DNA of 40,680 bases, taken from Deltaproteobacteria bacterium. GTDB lineage: Bacteria > Desulfobacterota > Desulfuromonadia > Desulfuromonadales > Geopsychrobacteraceae. The stretch is taken from positions 1 to 40,680 of the forward strand of contig JAJRWF010000073.1 in NCBI GenBank assembly GCA_024276905.1. Direction: 5' to 3'. Below, in pieces: positions 5,270 through 40,680 of this stretch (the first letter of the stretch is position 1; every line of letters begins with the position of its first letter). The translations under genes were made by a program, and so were the position numbers. The notes beneath the pieces were generated by a model, which saw only the letters and a program-made list of their open reading frames with translations, was not told the origin of the DNA and did no database searches.

Positions 5270-6148
5270 TTACTTGCGCAGGATATCCATCGCTTTGGCC
5301 AGCGAAACCTTCATCCGGTTGAAGGCATCGGCCAGTAACTTGATCTCATCGTTCCCCTTGACCTCAAACTCACGGTCCATCTTGCCGCGACTGATATCTT
5401 CAGCCACTTCGACCAGGCCTTCAATCGGCTTGACCAGCGTGCTGATGATGATCCGGTCGAGGACCAGCATCGCGAACAGAAAGAGCAGGCTGATGCCGCC
5501 GGCGAAACCGGCCAGTTTTTTCATCGTTACCTTATCGGCTGCGGCCATCGGGACATAAACAAAACGGCAGCCGACAATATCGCCGACCTCGTAACCGTAA
5601 CCGGAATCGTCGCCATATTTTTTAACCATTTCAGGGTTGGCGACTTCCGGGGTGTCATGGCACCAGATGCAGCTTTTGCGGGCCACAACCGGGACGGCGG
5701 AGGCATAGTAGTGCCGCCCGGCCTTGTTGACCGTGCCTTCCCATTCTTCGAAGTCGCCATTGTTGAATCCGGAGATGATCGAATTCTCGAAAGCGTCGGA
5801 GCGGTTCGTCTTGTTCAGTGGGTTCGGGGATGCAATCTTGAAGAGATAGTCAGGGAAATCCTCTTCGATTATTTTTGCCGTTTCGCTCATCATGACGATT
5901 CCGACCGAGGCTTCGGGGAGGTAGCTGTCAGGGAGCAGATCCATAATTTCGGGCCGGACATTACGCGCCATGAACGTCTGGTTGGCTGACATGATCGTGG
6001 CAAAGAGTCTGGTTTTTTCCTTGGCTTCGAGTTGCGCGTCACGGTCGAGAACATAATAACCGCCTGCGATAGCGCCGACCATGGTGATGGTGTAGACCAT
6101 GATCAGGATGATCATCAGCCGTTTGCGAATGCTCATATTTCTCAGCAT
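5270..6148 (-). CDS. Membrane sensor with periplasmic c-type haem domain (DUF3365/Tll0287-like) and HAMP, no output domain
   Basis: 292 residues. A short cytoplasmic N-terminus and a transmembrane helix (about 12-32) are followed by a periplasmic domain of about 180 residues resembling DUF3365/Tll0287-like haem sensor domains. A single c-haem site, CIWCH, lies at residues 160-164. A second transmembrane helix (about 213-235) leads to a HAMP domain (about 236-290), where the protein stops. No methyl-accepting, kinase or cyclase domain follows. Similar haem sensors in Geobacter-type bacteria are usually joined to chemotaxis or kinase modules, so this truncated form is notable. The ATG is preceded by a strong GGGAGG. 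It lies 68 bp downstream of the receiver gene on the same strand, suggesting a redox-sensing pair. Confidence 0.85.
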   Translation of the reverse strand: MLRNMSIRKRLMIILIMVYTITMVGAIAGGYYVLDRDAQLEAKEKTRLFATIMSANQTFMARNVRPEIMDLLPDSYLPEASVGIVMMSETAKIIEEDFPDYLFKIASPNPLNKTNRSDAFENSIISGFNNGDFEEWEGTVNKAGRHYYASAVPVVARKSCIWCHDTPEVANPEMVKKYGDDSGYGYEVGDIVGCRFVYVPMAAADKVTMKKLAGFAGGISLLFLFAMLVLDRIIISTLVKPIEGLVEVAEDISRGKMDREFEVKGNDEIKLLADAFNRMKVSLAKAMDILRK

Positions 6149-8444: not shown

Positions 8445-11042
8445 ATGGTGCGAAGATCACGAATCAATGCGGCGTTGTTGATGGTTCTGCTGGGCTTGTC
8501 GGGGATGCTGCAGGGTTGTGGCGGCAGTAGCTCAGGGACTGATGCTGCTGCTGGAGCAGCGAGTCTTGGAATTGCTCTGCCGACGGAGGTTTCGGCTATC
8601 TCGGCCAGTAACAGCAACCCCTCAGCGTCACTGGCGTCCCAGATCAGGGCGGTGGCTGCCGCAGTCGGTAACCTGCCGTCCAACTCTGACTACCAGACAA
8701 CCCTGACCGCCAAGTATGTTGACGAGCCGACCCTGGAGGTATTCGGCATCATCGAAACCATCCTTAAGGCGACCGCTCAGACGCATTACGGCGATGCCGG
8801 CAACGTCGGTGCCGGTCCTTACAAGGCGATTGTTGCCTGGTTTGATGATGAGGGCGGCAAGTCAACCAAAACCCTGGAAGAATGGATTGTTCAGTCCGAT
8901 ATGGTGGGTGGCGTCAATAGAATAAAGATCTGGATCGATGACAATCAGGAGCCGGTCAAGGTCCAGGTTGACATCACGACCGCGCCGACTCAGGCCGCTG
9001 ACGGCAGCTACCTCAATTATGGCGAGTGGACCATTCTGGCCGACATCGGTAACGGCGGAAGTTTTGGCGGAACCTTCTATGCCAAGGCGGAAATCGTCGG
9101 CGGTCAGACCCAGTTGAGCATGTCGGAGGATTTCACCCGGAGCGAAAATATCGGCGGCGGCCCGATTGCCATTACTGACCAGACCAGGGCGATCATGCTC
9201 AAGTCGACCCTCAGCGGCGTCGGCAAGGCCTCTATCGCCGACCAGAGTTACTGCTGGGACACCGGTGGCGGACCGAGTCCCTGCACCAGTGATCTGATCC
9301 TGCCGACTGTTGACGTTCAGTACGCCTACGATGCCAATACCCTGGCGCTTGATCCCGGAGGCAGCAATCCGATCATCTATAAGGATCGTACCAACCCGGT
9401 TGAGATTAATTACAGTTACGGTCTGTTCGACGCCACCAGCGGCCAGGATGTCGAAAAAGTCAAGCAGTTCGGTTTTCCGGTCATCTTCGACAGTGATGGT
9501 TCCTACGGTTATTATGGTGCATGGCAGGGACGTCACCAACTCTGGGCGGGGGATTCTGCCGCTCCGGCCGACGGTACCAGCGTGACCAAGGAAGTCTGGG
9601 ACGGCAGTGTTGCGCCGACCTATACCACCAAAACCTTCAACGGAAGCTTGAGCAAGCGAATTATGACTTCGGCGGATCTGAGTCAGGTGTTGAATATCCC
9701 GGTCGAAATCTGGATGGGAGACGGTTTCTCCCTACGTTGGAGCCAGGCCAACTCCCGGTGGGAAAAGTGCCAGTGGGACCCAACCGCCAATAGCGGTGCC
9801 GGACAGAATGTCTGCGGGACCAGTGGTTTCGGTATGGGGGCTTTAACCTGGAGCGACAGCGATCGGAAACAGATCAATATCAACCGTTGGGACCCGGCGG
9901 CCAACGGCGGCAGCGGTGGCAATGTCGATTACTGGTATGACGGATCTCAGTTGAAGGTGCTCGATAACAGCAGCTGGCCGCCGACCAAAACCTCGACGCT
10001 CTATACGCCGTCGGCCGATGGTGAGGAGATCTGGGTCTGGATCAGCGGTTCGACCTATATCGAATACACTGGCGTCTTCACTGGCGGTGTCTCCGGCTGG
10101 GAAGAGAAGGACCTGACCAGCTTCGATCAGCAGAGCTGGACGCCCACCTTTGCCGCCACCAATCTGGGCCAGTTTGATTTTCCGGTCGGCACCGAATACT
10201 ACATCAACAACAAAGGGGTGAACTTCGTGGTCAAACGCATCGCCGGAACCAATGCGGCGAGCGATTACGAGGTATCGATGGAGTTGCAACAGGTCGCTCG
10301 CCCTGATAACGCCGCCGGTTTCCTGACCGGGGTTTCCTACCTGGCCTCGGCCTGGGAAGATGCCTCCACCCGTTCGACTTATGAATTAGAAGCGAACCCC
10401 GCCAGTCCGAATTACCTGTTGCTGGTTTACAAGGTTCCCGGCAGCAATGATAATGACAAGAATGCCGGGGATGTTGTTACCGAGGGGAAATGGGGGCTGC
10501 AGGCTTATGATGTCGGCGACAACGAAGTTTTGCAAAACAGCAGCCCGCTGCAATTCAACTGGGAATATGCCGATCCCAATCAGCAGGGCACCTGGGGGAG
10601 TGTCACCTACCTGTTAAACGGCAGCAATTATGTTTATCTGGATGACCCGATCATGCTCGATCCGATTGCCCTGACTCCGATGGGCGGGGGAGGAGCGCTT
10701 AACTTCTCCCTGCAGTTCGACGGCTGGATGCATGGTCTGCCCGACATGCGCTGGGAACTGGAGAAGAGCGGATTTATCCTGAGCAATGATATCAAAAACA
10801 AGGTTGTCAATATCCCGGAAGGAACCCTGGTGACCGACGGTACGAGCAGCACGCAGTATTATGTCAAGCCACTGGAGGTTGGAGTCATCCTGCCGATTCT
10901 CGGCTCGGCCCCGAGCGGAGCGCCAGATCCTGCAGCTGCGGCCAGTCTTGATATTAATTTTACGGTGCCGACCCCGACCGATATCGGCACCATGCCGACC
11001 GGCGTCACCACCAAATACGTGGAAGGAGTGGCTGTCCAATAG
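8445..11042 (+). CDS. Large secreted lipoprotein of unknown function (865 aa)
   Basis: The N-terminus is a lipoprotein signal: basic MVRRSR, a hydrophobic stretch, then the lipobox LQGC at about residue 25 followed by a Gly/Ser linker. The remaining 840 residues are rich in Gly, Asp, Ser, Trp and Tyr, with no transmembrane segment and no haem motif, consistent with an extracellular beta-rich protein. Two copies of a WDPxANxGxGxNV motif lie about 48 residues apart (nt about 9775 and 9889), probably an internal repeat. No catalytic motif was recognised. The start has a clear AGAGGAG site. It stands alone between a structured leader and a bidirectional terminator. The surface location is inferred. 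Confidence 0.8.
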   Translation: MVRRSRINAALLMVLLGLSGMLQGCGGSSSGTDAAAGAASLGIALPTEVSAISASNSNPSASLASQIRAVAAAVGNLPSNSDYQTTLTAKYVDEPTLEVFGIIETILKATAQTHYGDAGNVGAGPYKAIVAWFDDEGGKSTKTLEEWIVQSDMVGGVNRIKIWIDDNQEPVKVQVDITTAPTQAADGSYLNYGEWTILADIGNGGSFGGTFYAKAEIVGGQTQLSMSEDFTRSENIGGGPIAITDQTRAIMLKSTLSGVGKASIADQSYCWDTGGGPSPCTSDLILPTVDVQYAYDANTLALDPGGSNPIIYKDRTNPVEINYSYGLFDATSGQDVEKVKQFGFPVIFDSDGSYGYYGAWQGRHQLWAGDSAAPADGTSVTKEVWDGSVAPTYTTKTFNGSLSKRIMTSADLSQVLNIPVEIWMGDGFSLRWSQANSRWEKCQWDPTANSGAGQNVCGTSGFGMGALTWSDSDRKQININRWDPAANGGSGGNVDYWYDGSQLKVLDNSSWPPTKTSTLYTPSADGEEIWVWISGSTYIEYTGVFTGGVSGWEEKDLTSFDQQSWTPTFAATNLGQFDFPVGTEYYINNKGVNFVVKRIAGTNAASDYEVSMELQQVARPDNAAGFLTGVSYLASAWEDASTRSTYELEANPASPNYLLLVYKVPGSNDNDKNAGDVVTEGKWGLQAYDVGDNEVLQNSSPLQFNWEYADPNQQGTWGSVTYLLNGSNYVYLDDPIMLDPIALTPMGGGGALNFSLQFDGWMHGLPDMRWELEKSGFILSNDIKNKVVNIPEGTLVTDGTSSTQYYVKPLEVGVILPILGSAPSGAPDPAAAASLDINFTVPTPTDIGTMPTGVTTKYVEGVAVQ

Positions 11043-34567: not shown

Positions 34568-34661
34568 GCTTCACCCCGGTGGTTCTGAAGACGTTCCAGA
34601 CAACCCTTCCGTTTCTTTAGAAGCGGACTTACCATGCTTCCGCTTTGCCTGGTGGTGAAGC
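34568..34661 (+). promoter_or_regulatory. Structured 5' leader (possible cis-regulatory RNA) before the porin gene
   Basis: GCTTCACC (34568-34575) can pair with GGTGAAGC (34654-34661), closing a domain of about 94 bases that ends two bases before the CAGGAGG ribosome site. Inside it, AAGCGGA (34621-34627) pairs with TCCGCTT (34639-34645). I looked for the cyclic-dinucleotide GEMM motif and did not find its conserved core, so no known class is claimed. Confidence 0.4.
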
Positions 34662-34678
34662 TCCAGGAGGTTTTGTTT

Positions 34679-35974
34679 ATGACTGCTGTTGCCGATTCAT
34701 TGTCGTCCCGACGGCTTTGTTGTGTCTTGCTGGCCATTTTGCTTTTCTTGCCGTCGGTCTCCGTTGCCCTGACGGCAAAGGTTGAGCTGGAAACCATATT
34801 GCGGGGTTTTGAGCGTGATGTCCCTGTCAAGGGGAGCTCGCAAGTTCTCCCCGGCTACGGTTACCTGAAGCTTGATCTCAAGGACATCACTTCGAACGGC
34901 GTCAGTTTTCACGGTTACGGCTGGGGACGTTACGATGCCGCCGACAGCAACTACTATGACAGTCAGTCAGAGGGTGAACTGCTTTACGGCTACCTGGAAT
35001 ACAAGAAAAAGTTCAGCACACTGCGTGCGCGTCTGGGGCGGATGCATATTTACGAAGGTGTGGCCAACGAGGCTCTTGATGGACTCTGGCTCGCCGGGAG
35101 TGTTTCTCCCCAGATTTCTCTCTCCGGCTACGCCGGACAGCCGGTCGGTTTGTCTTCGACCGATGATCGCAGCGGCGACAGTCTGTTTGGCGGGCGGGTC
35201 GCTTACCATGGGAGCGACAAATTCGATATCGGCCTTTCGGCCAAATTTTCCAACAACGACGGCAATACCGCAGATCGCATGATCGGTACCGACCTGATCT
35301 ATTATCTGCCCAAGGATATGACCCTCTTCGGTTTTTCAAAGTTCAATACCGATGAATCGAGCTTTGCCGAGCATTCATGGGAATTGCGCATTCCCTTCGA
35401 AGAGTGGGATTTCAAACCTTACATTCAGTATTATGACTATGACGGCTATTTCGGTACCGGCGACAAGGCACGATTACCCTTCAGTAATCTGGCCAACAGC
35501 GGCGAGTCGCTCGGGATTCTCGGGCTCTACACTTTCTGGCGCAAGTCTGAAGAGTTGAATCTGGGCGCCAAACTCAAGGCTTACAGTTACGATGATAATG
35601 ACAGTTCCCAGTATATTGCGGCGGTTGTGGACTTCCTCGGCGACGAGCGTACCCAGAGTGGTGGTGAACTGGGTTACATGCGCGGGGAAGCTGCCAACAA
35701 TGATTATTTGCTGTTGCGACTCTATACCTACCAGGACCAGATTCCGGAAAAGTACTGGGTTGCCTTTGTTTCGGCCGATCTGGTTTATGCCCTTTACGAC
35801 CAGGAAATCAACAACAAAAGTTCTTCGCTGTTTCTGTCACTGGGGGCTGGCAAGCACTTCTGGAACGATGCTCTTGATCTGAAGCTTTCGGCTGATTACA
35901 GCGTCGATCCTTTTTACACCTCTGATCTGCGGGGAACGCTCTCGGCCACCTACTTCTTCGGCCGGAGGAATTGA
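34679..35974 (+). CDS. Outer-membrane beta-barrel protein of a porin-cytochrome cluster
   Basis: 431 residues. A Sec signal peptide (cleavage near VSVALTA) is followed by alternating aromatic/polar strands throughout, many ending in Tyr/Phe/Trp pairs, and the C-terminus reads LSATYFFG, as in outer-membrane barrels. There is no haem motif. Length and context fit the porin part of a porin-cytochrome conduit, which sheathes a cytochrome across the outer membrane. ATG 34679 has AGGAGG eight bases upstream. It is first in an operon with the pentahaem and giant cytochrome genes; it is not obviously similar to OmbB or MtrB by eye, so assignment to a known subfamily is open. Confidence 0.8.
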   Translation: MTAVADSLSSRRLCCVLLAILLFLPSVSVALTAKVELETILRGFERDVPVKGSSQVLPGYGYLKLDLKDITSNGVSFHGYGWGRYDAADSNYYDSQSEGELLYGYLEYKKKFSTLRARLGRMHIYEGVANEALDGLWLAGSVSPQISLSGYAGQPVGLSSTDDRSGDSLFGGRVAYHGSDKFDIGLSAKFSNNDGNTADRMIGTDLIYYLPKDMTLFGFSKFNTDESSFAEHSWELRIPFEEWDFKPYIQYYDYDGYFGTGDKARLPFSNLANSGESLGILGLYTFWRKSEELNLGAKLKAYSYDDNDSSQYIAAVVDFLGDERTQSGGELGYMRGEAANNDYLLLRLYTYQDQIPEKYWVAFVSADLVYALYDQEINNKSSSLFLSLGAGKHFWNDALDLKLSADYSVDPFYTSDLRGTLSATYFFGRRN

Positions 35975-35975
35975 A

Positions 35976-36473
35976 ATGAAAAAGCTGACTTCTGGAGCCG
36001 ATACAATGATAAATCGAATCTGCCTGTTAATCCTGCTGTCTCTGTTGCTTCTGCTTGCAGCCTGCGCACTCGACAAGAGCGGCTATACGCCACCCGAACA
36101 GCATCCGGTTGATGCCGAACTCCCCCCTAAACCACCAATTTGTATCGATTGTCACGAAGCGCGTGACGAGAACTTCAACTGGGGACAGTTTGACCACACA
36201 ATTTCGTTTGGCCAGGATCACCGTCAGCAGGCCTATCGCCAGAACCGGGTCTGCAGCATGTGTCATACCCCCAGCTTCTGCAGTGATTGCCACGCCACCC
36301 GAATTGAGCTGAAACCGAGTGATCGGGATCCAACCAAGACCTACCGCCGCATGCCGCACCGGGGAGATTACCTCTCTCGGCACCGTATCGATGGCCGAGT
36401 TGATCCATCCTCCTGTTTTCGCTGCCACGGCAACTCGAAAACTGCCCAGAACTGCGCACGTTGTCACGCATAA
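35976..36473 (+). CDS. Pentahaem c-type cytochrome lipoprotein
   Basis: Up to 165 residues with five CxxCH motifs: CIDCH, CSMCH, CSDCH, CFRCH and CARCH, the last at the extreme C-terminus. The N-terminus has a lipobox LAAC (about residue 30 from the first ATG) after a Leu-rich core. Two starts are possible: ATG 35976 (GGAGGA six bases upstream, 1 bp after the porin stop) and ATG 36006 (GGAG nine bases upstream), which gives a more standard signal peptide. It probably passes electrons in or across the outer membrane between periplasmic carriers and the giant cytochrome. The name of the closest known cytochrome was not determined. Confidence 0.88.
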   Translation: MKKLTSGADTMINRICLLILLSLLLLLAACALDKSGYTPPEQHPVDAELPPKPPICIDCHEARDENFNWGQFDHTISFGQDHRQQAYRQNRVCSMCHTPSFCSDCHATRIELKPSDRDPTKTYRRMPHRGDYLSRHRIDGRVDPSSCFRCHGNSKTAQNCARCHA

Positions 36474-36499
36474 GTTAAATGCCTGGGAGATTGTCTAAT

Positions 36500-39400
36500 A
36501 TGAAGAATGTCAATTTTATTCTATTGATACTGCTACTTGCTGTTGTTGCCGGTTGTTCGAGCGGAAATTCCGATGCACCGGCTCTCGGTGGGAAGGTTGA
36601 GCCGCACCCGACCAACTGGATTTCACTGCACGGATCCCAGGCTAATGCAGATCTGCGCGGCTGCCAGGGCTGTCATGGATTCGACTTCAAGGGGGCCGGA
36701 AATGCGGTCAGTTGCTTTGATTGTCATTCTTCGGGTCCGCCCTTCAGCGGCGCGCACCCGGCATCCTGGAACGCTGACCCGCTGGTCAGTCATCGGCTTA
36801 ATTTCCAGACCGCATTGAGTGATCAGACGCCCTGGACAACCTGTGCCGTTGCTGCTTGTCATGGGGTTAATCTCGAAGGAGGCGCCTCGGGACCGACCTG
36901 CCGGAACGCGGCCTGTCATCCGACCGGGACCAATAACTGGCCACCGGCACCGGCGAACCACAGTACTTTCAATGCCGCAAATGCCAGTGCGGATGCCGTG
37001 CACGGACGTGCGGCCAAGGGGGAAACCGATCCATCCCTGAGTATGGGAAATTCCTGTATTCTTTGCCACGGTACACCGACCAACCCGATTGCAACGACAT
37101 TTAATGGTGGTTTTGTCAGCAATCCTGCCATTGTTAATGATACGAATGCCAATTGTTCGGCCGCATCCTGCCATCCGAATGCAACGGCTCATCCCTCCAA
37201 TTGGGCCAGTACTCGCACGGGGAACAATATCTACCATAACAACGGCACCCTGACCGCGGGGATCAAAAGTGCGTCCTGTGCGCTCTGCCATACGACGACC
37301 GGCCAGCTGCCAGCCAGTCCATTTTCCGGCGCGCCGACCTGTTTCGCGACGTCTTTCAATGGTTTGACCTGTCACGCATCAGGACCTGGAAGTGCCCCCC
37401 ACGACACTCTGGCAACAACTGGAATCGACTACCTCCCCGCAGGCCAGCATGGCCCGGCGGCCAAGGCTAATCTGATTTACTGTCAGACCTGCCATGGTAC
37501 CGCAGGCGGTGCTGGCAGTGATCCGCGGTTTAATGTCGCCAAAGGGACAATGACCGCCGGTTGCGAGGATTGCCACCCGGTTGGCGCTGCACACCCGAGT
37601 CGAGCCGATCGTTGGACATTCAATCTGGACGCAACTCACGATGTGACCGGGGATCCCTTGACCCGTCGTACCCACTTTGCTGCTGGCCTTGATGGTGCCA
37701 ATCCCAGGGATTTGAGTGGTTGTTCGCTTTGTCATGATGCGACATCAGGCGGTGCCGATGATTCCGGTTCGGCTCCAGCCTGTACAACCTGCCACCTTTC
37801 GCTCGGAGCATCCGGGCCATCGGCCGGTGTCAAGTGTACCTACTGCCACCTGTCACCACCGGACGGGACCAATGATTTTACGGTCGATCCGGTCAATGGC
37901 AGTGCGAGCGTAACGCACACGATCAACGGCAATGATATCAGCCTGGAACCACTGCACGATACCTGCGCGCTTTGTCATGGTGCCAAGGAAAATGGTTCAA
38001 CTGGGATATTAACGCCCAAAAATTCCAGCTACAGCCTGACACTCGCGAATACCAGCCCGACCTATCAGGGTGGTGACCATCTTGATGGCAATATCGAAAT
38101 GAATGGTCCGGTTGGTACCGGTGCGGGTTACGACGCGACGAGCTGGAATTGTACCCAGACGTGCCATTCTGCAGCTGAATCATTGCGGGCGCTATCTGAT
38201 TCAACCCTGACCCTGGAGTATGGCGATTATGGTGCCGGCTCCTGCAATAGCTGTCATAACTACCCACCTGATGGTAATGCCTGGCCTGATGGCAGCGCTA
38301 CAGACAGTACCAATCACCTTGCGGCAAACCGTGACCGTAACGGTGGTGGCTCAGGAGCGACCGATGCAGCATTCTACGCTGCACATGATACCTGTGCCTC
38401 CTGTCACGGAGTGAAAGGCAACCAGGTGCCGCCGACCCTGGCGACGGCCCGGACGGGTGCGGTTGACCTCACGGGCAGTAATGGTGACGCCTACCTGGAC
38501 CCGGCCATGCACAACGATGGCAGTATCCAGATGAACGGCTACAATGCCGGTATCGGTGACGGGACCAGTGACAACAATGCCGGCTACGATGGAGCCGGAG
38601 GTTGTGCCGATGCCTGTCATCCGCAAACCTGGGTTTTCAGTACGATTCAAAGTGCACCTGCAAATACCGTAGAATTACGTGAATTCGGTGGTGGTTGTAC
38701 CTCTTGCCATGGTTTCCCCCCGGTTCAGGGAGCGCATGTGCGTCATGCCGGTGGTGGAACCGATTATTCTTACGATTGTCAGATGTGCCATCCCAGTTCT
38801 TCTGCTTCCTCTCACAATGAGGGGAATGGCACGGTGATTGCGGCCAACGTTGACGTATTAGCGACTCTTGGCGGGTTTGGAAATGTTCCGGCGGCGGGAA
38901 CCTTTGATTCGGGAACCAAGGCCTGCTCCAATACCTACTGTCATGGCACTCTGTCGACACCGAGCTGGACCGGTGGCTCCAGTCAGGCCCTCTGTGGCAG
39001 TTGTCACGGGTTTGATTCTACAGGTCGACCCGCGACCCCCACGTCCGGCGGTAACCATCTGACTACTCCTCACCAGGCAGAAACCTGTGACAGTTGTCAT
39101 ACGCACAATAATACCTCTTTGATCGATCTGGCCGAACATGCCAACGGTCGGGCTGATACGGTCAACGGTTTTTATGATGCGACCGTGAGTTCCGCCGGTG
39201 CAAAGCTGGCATCCTACACCTACGGCAGCAGTACTCTGGGTACAGATTCTCACGGGCGCAGGTACTCTGCCGGAACCTGTAGTTCGAATAATGCCGGTTG
39301 TCACGGTACGGCCACCTGGGGTAGTGCGACACTGGCCTGCGCCGCTTGCCACAATCAGACAGGTAACAGCGCTCCGCAGATTAATGCGGCAACGGAGCAC

Positions 39401-40680
39401 ACCGATGCTGATGGCACCGGAACTTCCTACGCGGCCGGCACCTGTGAAGACTGCCATCCTGGTGGCACCAAGGGGCTCAGGCATCTCAAAAACAGCGATG
39501 TCAACGTGGTGGCGATTGCCAACAACACGACGGTGGGAATCAATTACGGACATACTGTTGATACCGGCGTGAATGGTTTTGTCCTTGGCGGTGATGCGAC
39601 AACCGGAACGACCGAAGCCGAGATCTGCTGGAATTGCCATGATGGCAATGGTGTCTCGGAGTGGGGTATGAACAACATGGCCAGTACCGGGGGTCTTACT
39701 TACAACTATGGGCAGACCTATACCACTTCTGGGACGACCACCCCGACTAGCAACTGGGTTGGAGCATGGTGGAAATCGGGGACCGCAGCTTTTACCTATA
39801 AAACAGGGCAGATTCAGTCGACGCACTCGGCAAATAGTGTCAACGGGGTTCAGGGAATGGACGCTGTGACGGATATTCGTTGCTCCTACTGTCATGATGT
39901 GCATGACACTCTGGCCGGATCACCCGCCGGGGCTCCGTTTTTACGCGGCAGCTGGCGAGGCAATCCCTACAAGGAAGATGGTGCCCCGCAACAGGGGACC
40001 CAGTACAACAGTGCCAACGCTTATGGTCGTGTGCCGCGCGGTTCCAACTCCACGACCCAGCTGATGGGCGGCTACTGGATTGATCAGAACACCGCCGTTG
40101 CCAGTACTCCGGATGGCCGCGGTTGGACGCCGGAAGATTTTGGTGGTCTGTGTGAAAAATGTCATGGTAACAACGATGGAATCTTCTCCGCTGCCGAGAT
40201 CGGGTCCTTGGGTGGAACCGCCGGTTGGGTCAGCGGCCTGAACGGTCATGCAAACTCGGTCAAGGGGGCCGCTCATACCGACACGGCTGGCGGACGAAAT
40301 ATCTTCGATGCCCGTGGCGGGACCCAACTTGGCTACAATGGTTTGATGGCTTTCAGCGGCTATCGTCGTCCCGGCGATAATGCCGGCGGATTGCGTGGTA
40401 TGGAGAAGTCCCTCGGCGAAGGCCCGAAGGTGCAACTCTGGGATAACGAGCCTGAAGCTAACGCTGTTACCAGTAATGGGAACCCGGCAGTGATCGATTG
40501 GGACAACCTGCGGACACTCGATCTGACCGGCAGTACAGTCAATCCGGATTTTCACCATTTCAGCTGTTCGAAATGCCATAACCCACATGCATCACGCTTG
40601 CCGCGGTTGATGATCACCAACTGCCTGGATACCAAGCACAATACCTGGGACAATGGTGGCACGGTGGATGACAGCTGGGA
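36500..40680 (+). CDS. Giant multihaem c-type cytochrome lipoprotein, 3' end outside window
   Basis: The frame is open for 1393 codons from ATG 36500 to the window end with no stop. A lipoprotein signal ends in VVAGC (residue 19). I count 22 CxxCH motifs. There are also four CX4CH (CAVAACH, CRNAACH, CSAASCH, CSNTYCH), two CX3CH (CTQTCH, CADACH), one CX6CH (CSSNNAGCH) and one possible CX9CH. The CX4CH-then-CX2CH pairs fit the Geobacter CxxxxCH...CxxCH family (PF09698). The regions between are Gly/Asn/Thr-rich. It should sit outside the outer membrane as a terminal reductase or nanowire-like conductor, fed by the preceding porin and pentahaem protein (26 bp gap). The ribosome site (GGGAGA) is moderate. 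Confidence 0.93.
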   Translation, partial: MKNVNFILLILLLAVVAGCSSGNSDAPALGGKVEPHPTNWISLHGSQANADLRGCQGCHGFDFKGAGNAVSCFDCHSSGPPFSGAHPASWNADPLVSHRLNFQTALSDQTPWTTCAVAACHGVNLEGGASGPTCRNAACHPTGTNNWPPAPANHSTFNAANASADAVHGRAAKGETDPSLSMGNSCILCHGTPTNPIATTFNGGFVSNPAIVNDTNANCSAASCHPNATAHPSNWASTRTGNNIYHNNGTLTAGIKSASCALCHTTTGQLPASPFSGAPTCFATSFNGLTCHASGPGSAPHDTLATTGIDYLPAGQHGPAAKANLIYCQTCHGTAGGAGSDPRFNVAKGTMTAGCEDCHPVGAAHPSRADRWTFNLDATHDVTGDPLTRRTHFAAGLDGANPRDLSGCSLCHDATSGGADDSGSAPACTTCHLSLGASGPSAGVKCTYCHLSPPDGTNDFTVDPVNGSASVTHTINGNDISLEPLHDTCALCHGAKENGSTGILTPKNSSYSLTLANTSPTYQGGDHLDGNIEMNGPVGTGAGYDATSWNCTQTCHSAAESLRALSDSTLTLEYGDYGAGSCNSCHNYPPDGNAWPDGSATDSTNHLAANRDRNGGGSGATDAAFYAAHDTCASCHGVKGNQVPPTLATARTGAVDLTGSNGDAYLDPAMHNDGSIQMNGYNAGIGDGTSDNNAGYDGAGGCADACHPQTWVFSTIQSAPANTVELREFGGGCTSCHGFPPVQGAHVRHAGGGTDYSYDCQMCHPSSSASSHNEGNGTVIAANVDVLATLGGFGNVPAAGTFDSGTKACSNTYCHGTLSTPSWTGGSSQALCGSCHGFDSTGRPATPTSGGNHLTTPHQAETCDSCHTHNNTSLIDLAEHANGRADTVNGFYDATVSSAGAKLASYTYGSSTLGTDSHGRRYSAGTCSSNNAGCHGTATWGSATLACAACHNQTGNSAPQINAATEHTDADGTGTSYAAGTCEDCHPGGTKGLRHLKNSDVNVVAIANNTTVGINYGHTVDTGVNGFVLGGDATTGTTEAEICWNCHDGNGVSEWGMNNMASTGGLTYNYGQTYTTSGTTTPTSNWVGAWWKSGTAAFTYKTGQIQSTHSANSVNGVQGMDAVTDIRCSYCHDVHDTLAGSPAGAPFLRGSWRGNPYKEDGAPQQGTQYNSANAYGRVPRGSNSTTQLMGGYWIDQNTAVASTPDGRGWTPEDFGGLCEKCHGNNDGIFSAAEIGSLGGTAGWVSGLNGHANSVKGAAHTDTAGGRNIFDARGGTQLGYNGLMAFSGYRRPGDNAGGLRGMEKSLGEGPKVQLWDNEPEANAVTSNGNPAVIDWDNLRTLDLTGSTVNPDFHHFSCSKCHNPHASRLPRLMITNCLDTKHNTWDNGGTVDDSW

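Follow-up and report, generated by a model that had tools for sequence, protein, structure and literature searches.

The three-gene cluster and the extent of the giant gene

The stretch analysed here, referred to as the window, is an entire contig of 40,680 nucleotides (nt), JAJRWF010000073.1 (contig C20 of genome G000), from a Deltaproteobacteria bacterium assigned to the Geopsychrobacteraceae. The window closes with three genes of the same orientation, and these likely encode an ExtBCD-type porin-cytochrome conduit whose ExtD-like outer component is enlarged to 31 haem motifs; the host is a relative of Geopsychrobacter within the Desulfuromonadales. The features of the cluster are listed below, with lengths and positions in amino acids (aa).

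34634 to 35974, plus strand: predicted ExtB-like outer-membrane beta-barrel protein, 446 aa from the first ATG; likely start at 34679, after AGGAGG
35976 to 36473, plus strand: ExtC-like pentahaem lipoprotein, 165 aa, five CxxCH motifs, lipobox LAAC; GGAGG 7 nt before the ATG
36479 to 40680, plus strand: ExtD-like giant lipoprotein multihaem cytochrome, running off the window end; likely start at 36500
36554 to 36556, plus strand: lipobox cysteine of the ExtD-like protein (AGC, aa 26), a predicted lipid anchor; invariant in sets of 20 and 24 ExtD-like sequences

The ExtB-like gene lies directly upstream, and its product shares 37–79% identity with the proteins found at the same position in 12 relatives; from this position and the published description of ExtB (PMC6148476), we infer that it forms a barrel. 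The ExtC-like protein is conserved in 45 named loci, including homologues in Geobacter-type loci, and related sequences, some of them weak matches, occur in 42 of the 136 genomes of the order. The association of a barrel, a five-haem lipoprotein and a variable lipoprotein cytochrome recurs in about 17 relatives, in most of the 45 named loci, and extends over the Desulfuromonadales and some neighbours.

The ExtD-like reading frame (36479–40678) comprises 1400 open codons and reaches the end of the window. The ATG at 36500, codon 8 of the frame, is preceded by GGGAG at a distance of about 10 nt and is probably the true start, as proposed in a preliminary description of this DNA. That description also held that the protein continues beyond the window and that its full motif count is higher. 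Contig C54 of the same assembly overlaps exactly with the last 141 bases of the window contig, and reading through from C20 into C54 adds 85 codons. The protein thus continues as anticipated, but the gain amounts to a single CH motif (aa 1458) and no further CxxCH. The joined protein ends in ...NCHRLAGDDPLHPDDAAGSGGGWNTVTPW and counts 1485 aa from 36479, with 31 CH motifs and a mass of approximately 149 kDa, excluding signal peptide and haems.

The join is credible because four other genomes, one of them complete, hold the full-length gene in the same setting; in addition, the frame is unbroken, the homology spans the junction and the relatives share the same downstream genes. The contig break falls in a tail whose DNA is 77% identical to that of a further giant cytochrome gene in this assembly, which might point to an assembler-made chimera of two genes. 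The gene is present at full length, with 31 CH motifs and in the same place, in the independent genomes G005, G006 and G007 and in the complete genome G003, and this explanation was therefore rejected as extremely improbable. A scan for a promoter upstream revealed nothing above chance, and a search of a plasmid collection returned no match.

Haem motifs and their spacing

Within the window, the ExtD-like protein contains 22 CxxCH, four CX4CH, two CX3CH, one CX6CH and one CX9CH motif, 30 in total. The preliminary description of a giant multihaem cytochrome with at least 28 motifs is therefore confirmed, if slightly understated given the 31 motifs at full length. Its 22 CxxCH and its CX4CH, CX3CH and CX6CH variants agree with the recount (29 motifs), while the CX9CH motif was overlooked. 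The expanded motifs are located as follows, with the spacings found in homologues.

36842 to 36862, plus strand: CX4CH (aa 122–128); CX4CH in all nine full-length homologues; in a wider set, CX2CH in 10 and CX4CH in 18
36899 to 36919, plus strand: CX4CH (aa 141–147, site 146); CX4, CX6 or CX14 in full-length homologues
37154 to 37174, plus strand: CX4CH (aa 226–232, site 231); CX4 or CX2 in homologues
37340 to 37375, plus strand: CX9CH (aa 288–299, site 298); both cysteines and the histidine never vary in alignments with 20 and 24 ExtD-like sequences
38150 to 38167, plus strand: CX3CH (aa 558–563); CX3CH in all nine full-length homologues
38603 to 38620, plus strand: CX3CH (aa 709–714); CX3CH in all nine full-length homologues
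38924 to 38944, plus strand: CX4CH (aa 816–822, site 821); inside the TIGR01904 match; CX3CH in one homologue
39278 to 39304, plus strand: CX6CH (aa 934–942, site 941); CX6, CX3 or CX4 in homologues

The motif content far exceeds what is expected by chance. Residue shuffling (2000 shuffles) yields a mean of 0.12 CxxCH motifs and a maximum of 3, compared with the 22 observed. When these 22 are held fixed (5000 shuffles), CX3–9CH motifs arise with a mean of 0.11 and a maximum of 3, against 8 in the protein. Leaving the lipobox cysteine aside, all 62 cysteines fall into 31 C...CH pairs in strict alternation, without orphans, whereas shuffles with the CxxCH motifs fixed leave at least 12 cysteines unpaired and never reproduce the strict alternation. 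The nearest homologues (L040/L061, L041/L063, L043 and L044/L062) likewise have 62 cysteines, 31 pairs and no orphans; the standalone copy L042 and shorter homologues have one or two orphan cysteines in some cases. Outside the motifs, 39 histidines are available as second ligands.

Site-level comparisons are limited to nine full-length homologues because a 37-protein ExtD-like alignment is doubtful in its site assignment for the short members (e.g., at sites 1053 and 1458). Whole-module gaps apart, each expanded site in these homologues retains both cysteines and the histidine wherever the module is present. The spacing itself varies: the CX9CH site reads CX9, CX10 or CX14 in the nine homologues and 9, 10, 13, 14 or 19 residues in the ExtD-like set, site 365 is CX2 or CX4 among the nine, and the homologous ExtD sites together range from 2 to 19 residues. 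Because the spacing shifts while both cysteines and the histidine stay, we infer haem binding at the expanded motifs, which would represent loop insertions in working haem sites. The stretched spacing at many of the sites appears genuine and functional, not ornamental. Precedents exist for haem attachment to such motifs: CX3CH and CX4CH carry haem in MmcA according to mass spectrometry (PMC11024163), a haem sits on CX14CH in the OmcZ structure (PMC9473688), and sulfite reductases have CX15CH-type sites that need dedicated lyases (PMC6976685).

Some of the expanded motifs (CX6CH, CX9CH, CX4CH) might instead be structural or metal-binding and free of haem. Dedicated lyases can be required for expanded motifs (PMC6976685), and the search for maturation genes in the genome covered the ResB/CcsB type only. 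Against this stand the retention of both cysteines and the histidine at each expanded site, the conservation of the CX9CH site, which at least equals that of the CxxCH sites, and the interchange of sites 231 and 365 with the canonical CX2CH. Haem-free motifs are thus unlikely, and the earlier suggestion that some expanded motifs are structural is disfavoured for 30 of the 31 sites; it may still apply to the C-terminal CX75CH pair.

Elsewhere in the genome (L182; G000:C104:40500–55000, minus strand), two adjoining genes encode further giant cytochromes: one has 2376 aa and 25 CH, the other 60 CH over at least 2233 aa. Several CX3CH and CX4CH motifs are present in each, and the 2233-aa frame has 60 pairs, 14 of them with CX3 or CX4, and no orphans. 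A ResB/CcsB-type gene is found a few kb from this pair (L006:5895–7208, minus strand), and there are several ResB-like loci in the genome. So many expanded motifs in one protein, initially described as unusual, are so with respect to bacteria at large, but not within this order, as indicated by the TIGR01904 domain, this same-genome pair and a published 86-motif high-molecular-weight cytochrome of Desulfuromonas acetexigens (PMC12133095).

The C-terminal cysteine pair

The last pair of the ExtD-like protein is split between the two contigs.

40565 to 40680, plus strand: start of a conserved C-terminal tail, with CSKCH (aa 1363) and a lone cysteine (Cys1382); its partner NCHR (Cys1458) lies on the joined contig C54

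The tail, CSKCHNPHA..LP.L..TNC-(18-75)-NCHR..GWN, was found in 57 distinct versions, with the third cysteine always 19 residues past the first. The loop of the final pair measures 18 to 75 residues in relatives, and C1382...C1458-H amounts to CX75CH here. The tail resembles a doubled CXXCH with a long loop in its second half, C(18–75)CH; PF09699 (Paired_CXXCH_1, doubled CXXCH) matches the C terminus with 15.8–17.8 bits, below the gathering cut-off of 20.6 (E-value 0.0027). The C-terminal 400–500 aa or so, including this tail, are common to proteins of 2000–4000 aa in the order.

Two interpretations of this pair are compatible with the same conduit. The tail pair of the ExtD-like protein and of the other giant cytochromes of the order may carry covalent haem, with cysteines 18–75 residues apart, which would lie beyond the cited haem motifs and imply a maturation machinery that accepts almost any loop length; this interpretation is tentative, with a likelihood somewhat short of even. 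Alternatively, C1382...C1458-H may be a disulfide that staples the tail, which would leave 30 haems instead of 31 and allow the histidine of NCHR to ligate haem 30; we consider this close to an even call. The disulfide is favoured by a loop that here reaches 75 residues, compared with CX14–CX15 for the longest proven haem motifs cited in the literature, and by a long stretch with two extra cysteines between the lone and the final cysteine in L034 (L034:1702–3708). In NCHR all four residues are invariant, and conservation of the histidine is therefore not diagnostic by itself. On the other side, it is this pair that makes the C/CH alternation strict to the end in the ExtD-like protein and its nearest homologues, the loop lengths are continuous from 18 upward, and another conserved-looking histidine (NCLDTxH) is lost in several relatives that retain the CH. 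The tail also bears a weak, below-cut-off similarity to the opening part of Paired_CXXCH_1, a domain with a haem motif as its second half, and this points in the same direction.

ExtBCD assignment, the ExtD family and known systems

The published ExtABCD conduit consists of the 12-haem ExtA, the barrel ExtB, the five-haem ExtC and the 12-haem lipoprotein ExtD (PMC6148476). In the Geobacter-type loci L089, L092, L094, L096, L097 and L101, the trio is preceded by a cytochrome of about 290 aa with 11 CxxCH and one CX3CH. Judged by gene order and motif counts, these loci reproduce the published order and, closely, its haem counts; their ExtD proteins have 6–10 CH, compared with the 12 haems reported for Geobacter sulfurreducens ExtD (PMC6148476). 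The cluster could nevertheless be another porin-cytochrome conduit, ExtEFG-like or of an unnamed type, that merely resembles ExtBCD, since ExtF is also a pentahaem lipoprotein beside a barrel (PMC6148476) and the genome yielded no ExtA. In the Geobacter-type loci, however, this ExtC family follows a 12-CH cytochrome and a barrel and precedes a short lipoprotein cytochrome, as in ExtABCD, and the ExtEFG assignment was put aside on gene order. The lack of ExtA is no bar to the ExtBCD label because extBCD loci without a nearby extA have already been reported for the order (PMC6148476). A different conduit is accordingly improbable.

Several observations weigh against the ExtBCD assignment or the reading of the motifs as haem sites. 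The 12-haem ExtA gave no match in the genome itself (92% complete), in the complete genome G003 or in the genome of L061, whereas it was found in the Geobacter controls. The ExtB-like protein has no Pfam match, no NCBIfam match over the cut-off and no solved relative in a PDB sequence search. The assignment to ExtBCD relies on the order of the genes, on motif counts and on relatives from Geobacter. Spacing per site in the short homologues hinges on the alignment of low-complexity, haem-rich sequence. AlphaFold2 predictions of aa 1–720 (20 sequences; mean predicted local distance difference test score (pLDDT) 40) and of the last 556 aa of a homologue (5 sequences; mean pLDDT 28) were unusable and were discarded.

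The proteins in the third slot range from about 230 aa with 6 CH to 1512 aa with 31 CH. A profile built on the long members of ExtD matches the N-termini of short Geobacter-type ExtD proteins (best domain E-values of about 5e-26 for L097, 3e-23 for L101 and 6e-19 for L096) at positions 1–87 and approximately 265–380, with an ExtA-like control far lower. Since the profile finds these N-termini, ExtD is, on sequence grounds, one family with an anchor-proximal core and inserted or appended haem modules. The shortest form of the same clade (L056, 256 aa) matches positions 1–123 and 236–365, so that the stretch between them is an insertion in the longer proteins.

The outer lipoprotein is known to vary and, in the published view, is the part of the conduit that turns over (PMC6148476). 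A comparison of two species of one genus (G067 and G078) fits this view and shows it at close range: ExtC is 100% identical, the barrel 97% and the flanks 94–97%, compared with 38% for ExtD, which has 1317 aa in one and 816 aa in the other. The loci of two same-genus genomes, L047:3123–8877 and L050:3763–8014, exceed 92% DNA similarity only over roughly the first 137 nt of extD and in the downstream region, as if the body of the gene had been replaced. In G003, an ExtC-like remnant with two stops (C1:2567121–2567270, in L042) lies just 5' of a standalone full-length giant ExtD (L042:5276–9523), which suggests a decayed second conduit copy.

The cluster probably serves to export respiratory electrons across the outer membrane of a bacterium of the metal- or electrode-respiring type. 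Haem attachment, the barrel fold and the acceptor are predictions, and the function, outer-face location and electron path are deduced from what is known of the family. Periplasmic cytochromes would pass electrons to ExtC, a pentahaem protein that is lipid-anchored and associated with the ExtB barrel. The electrons would then cross the outer membrane into ExtD, lipid-anchored on the outer face, and travel along its chain of closely packed haems to a mineral, an electrode or a partner cell. The expanded motifs would be true haem sites with surface loops inserted between the two cysteines.

If this reading holds, genome surveys restricted to CxxCH miss nearly a third of the haems here (22 of 31 counted). 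The ExtD slot would offer a naturally graded set of outer cytochromes, with motif numbers rising from about 6 to 31 while the ExtB and ExtC partners stay conserved, for relating outer-cytochrome size to acceptor range. The distance between the cysteines of homologous haem sites, 2 to 19 residues and possibly 18–75 at the tail, bears on how strictly cytochrome c maturation reads the motif.

Elsewhere in the window, a Tll0287-like domain with HAMP and one CxxCH (5273–6148, minus strand) is a possible haem-containing sensor, and an 865-aa open reading frame (8445–11042, plus strand) has no Pfam match.

Among known systems, ExtABCD of G. sulfurreducens (GSU2645–GSU2642) shares the order of barrel, pentahaem lipoprotein and outer lipoprotein cytochrome, and the N-terminal core is that of the Geobacter-type ExtD. 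It differs in the presence of ExtA and in an ExtD with about 12 haem sites, as opposed to 1485 aa and 31 C...CH pairs. Four stretches match the PF22113 domains II/IV of MtrC/MtrF over the cut-off, and the proposed role is the same; MtrC has 10 haems, and no solved Mtr chain was matched in the PDB sequence search. The PDB searches returned weak haem-motif matches only, the best being 1z1n (sixteen-haem cytochrome, E-value 3e-4), probably driven by the motifs. The loop between haem cysteines is shared with OmcZ (CX14CH at haem 1), and some homologues have CX14CH where the ExtD-like protein has CX9CH. OmcZ gave no sequence match among solved structures, and the shared motif does not imply filaments. 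The CxxxxCH/CxxCH domain (TIGR01904/PF09698) matches over the cut-off, the best match (45.3 bits; curated TIGR01904 cut-off 27) spanning the CX4CH at aa 816 and the CxxCH at aa 839; it represents a small part of the protein, and the CX9 and other variants fall outside its definition. The high-molecular-weight cytochromes of Desulfuromonadales (2000–4000 aa) share the C-terminal region, whereas the ExtD-like protein is predicted to be lipid-anchored and lies within a conduit cluster. The cluster is of a known kind, with an unusually large ExtD.

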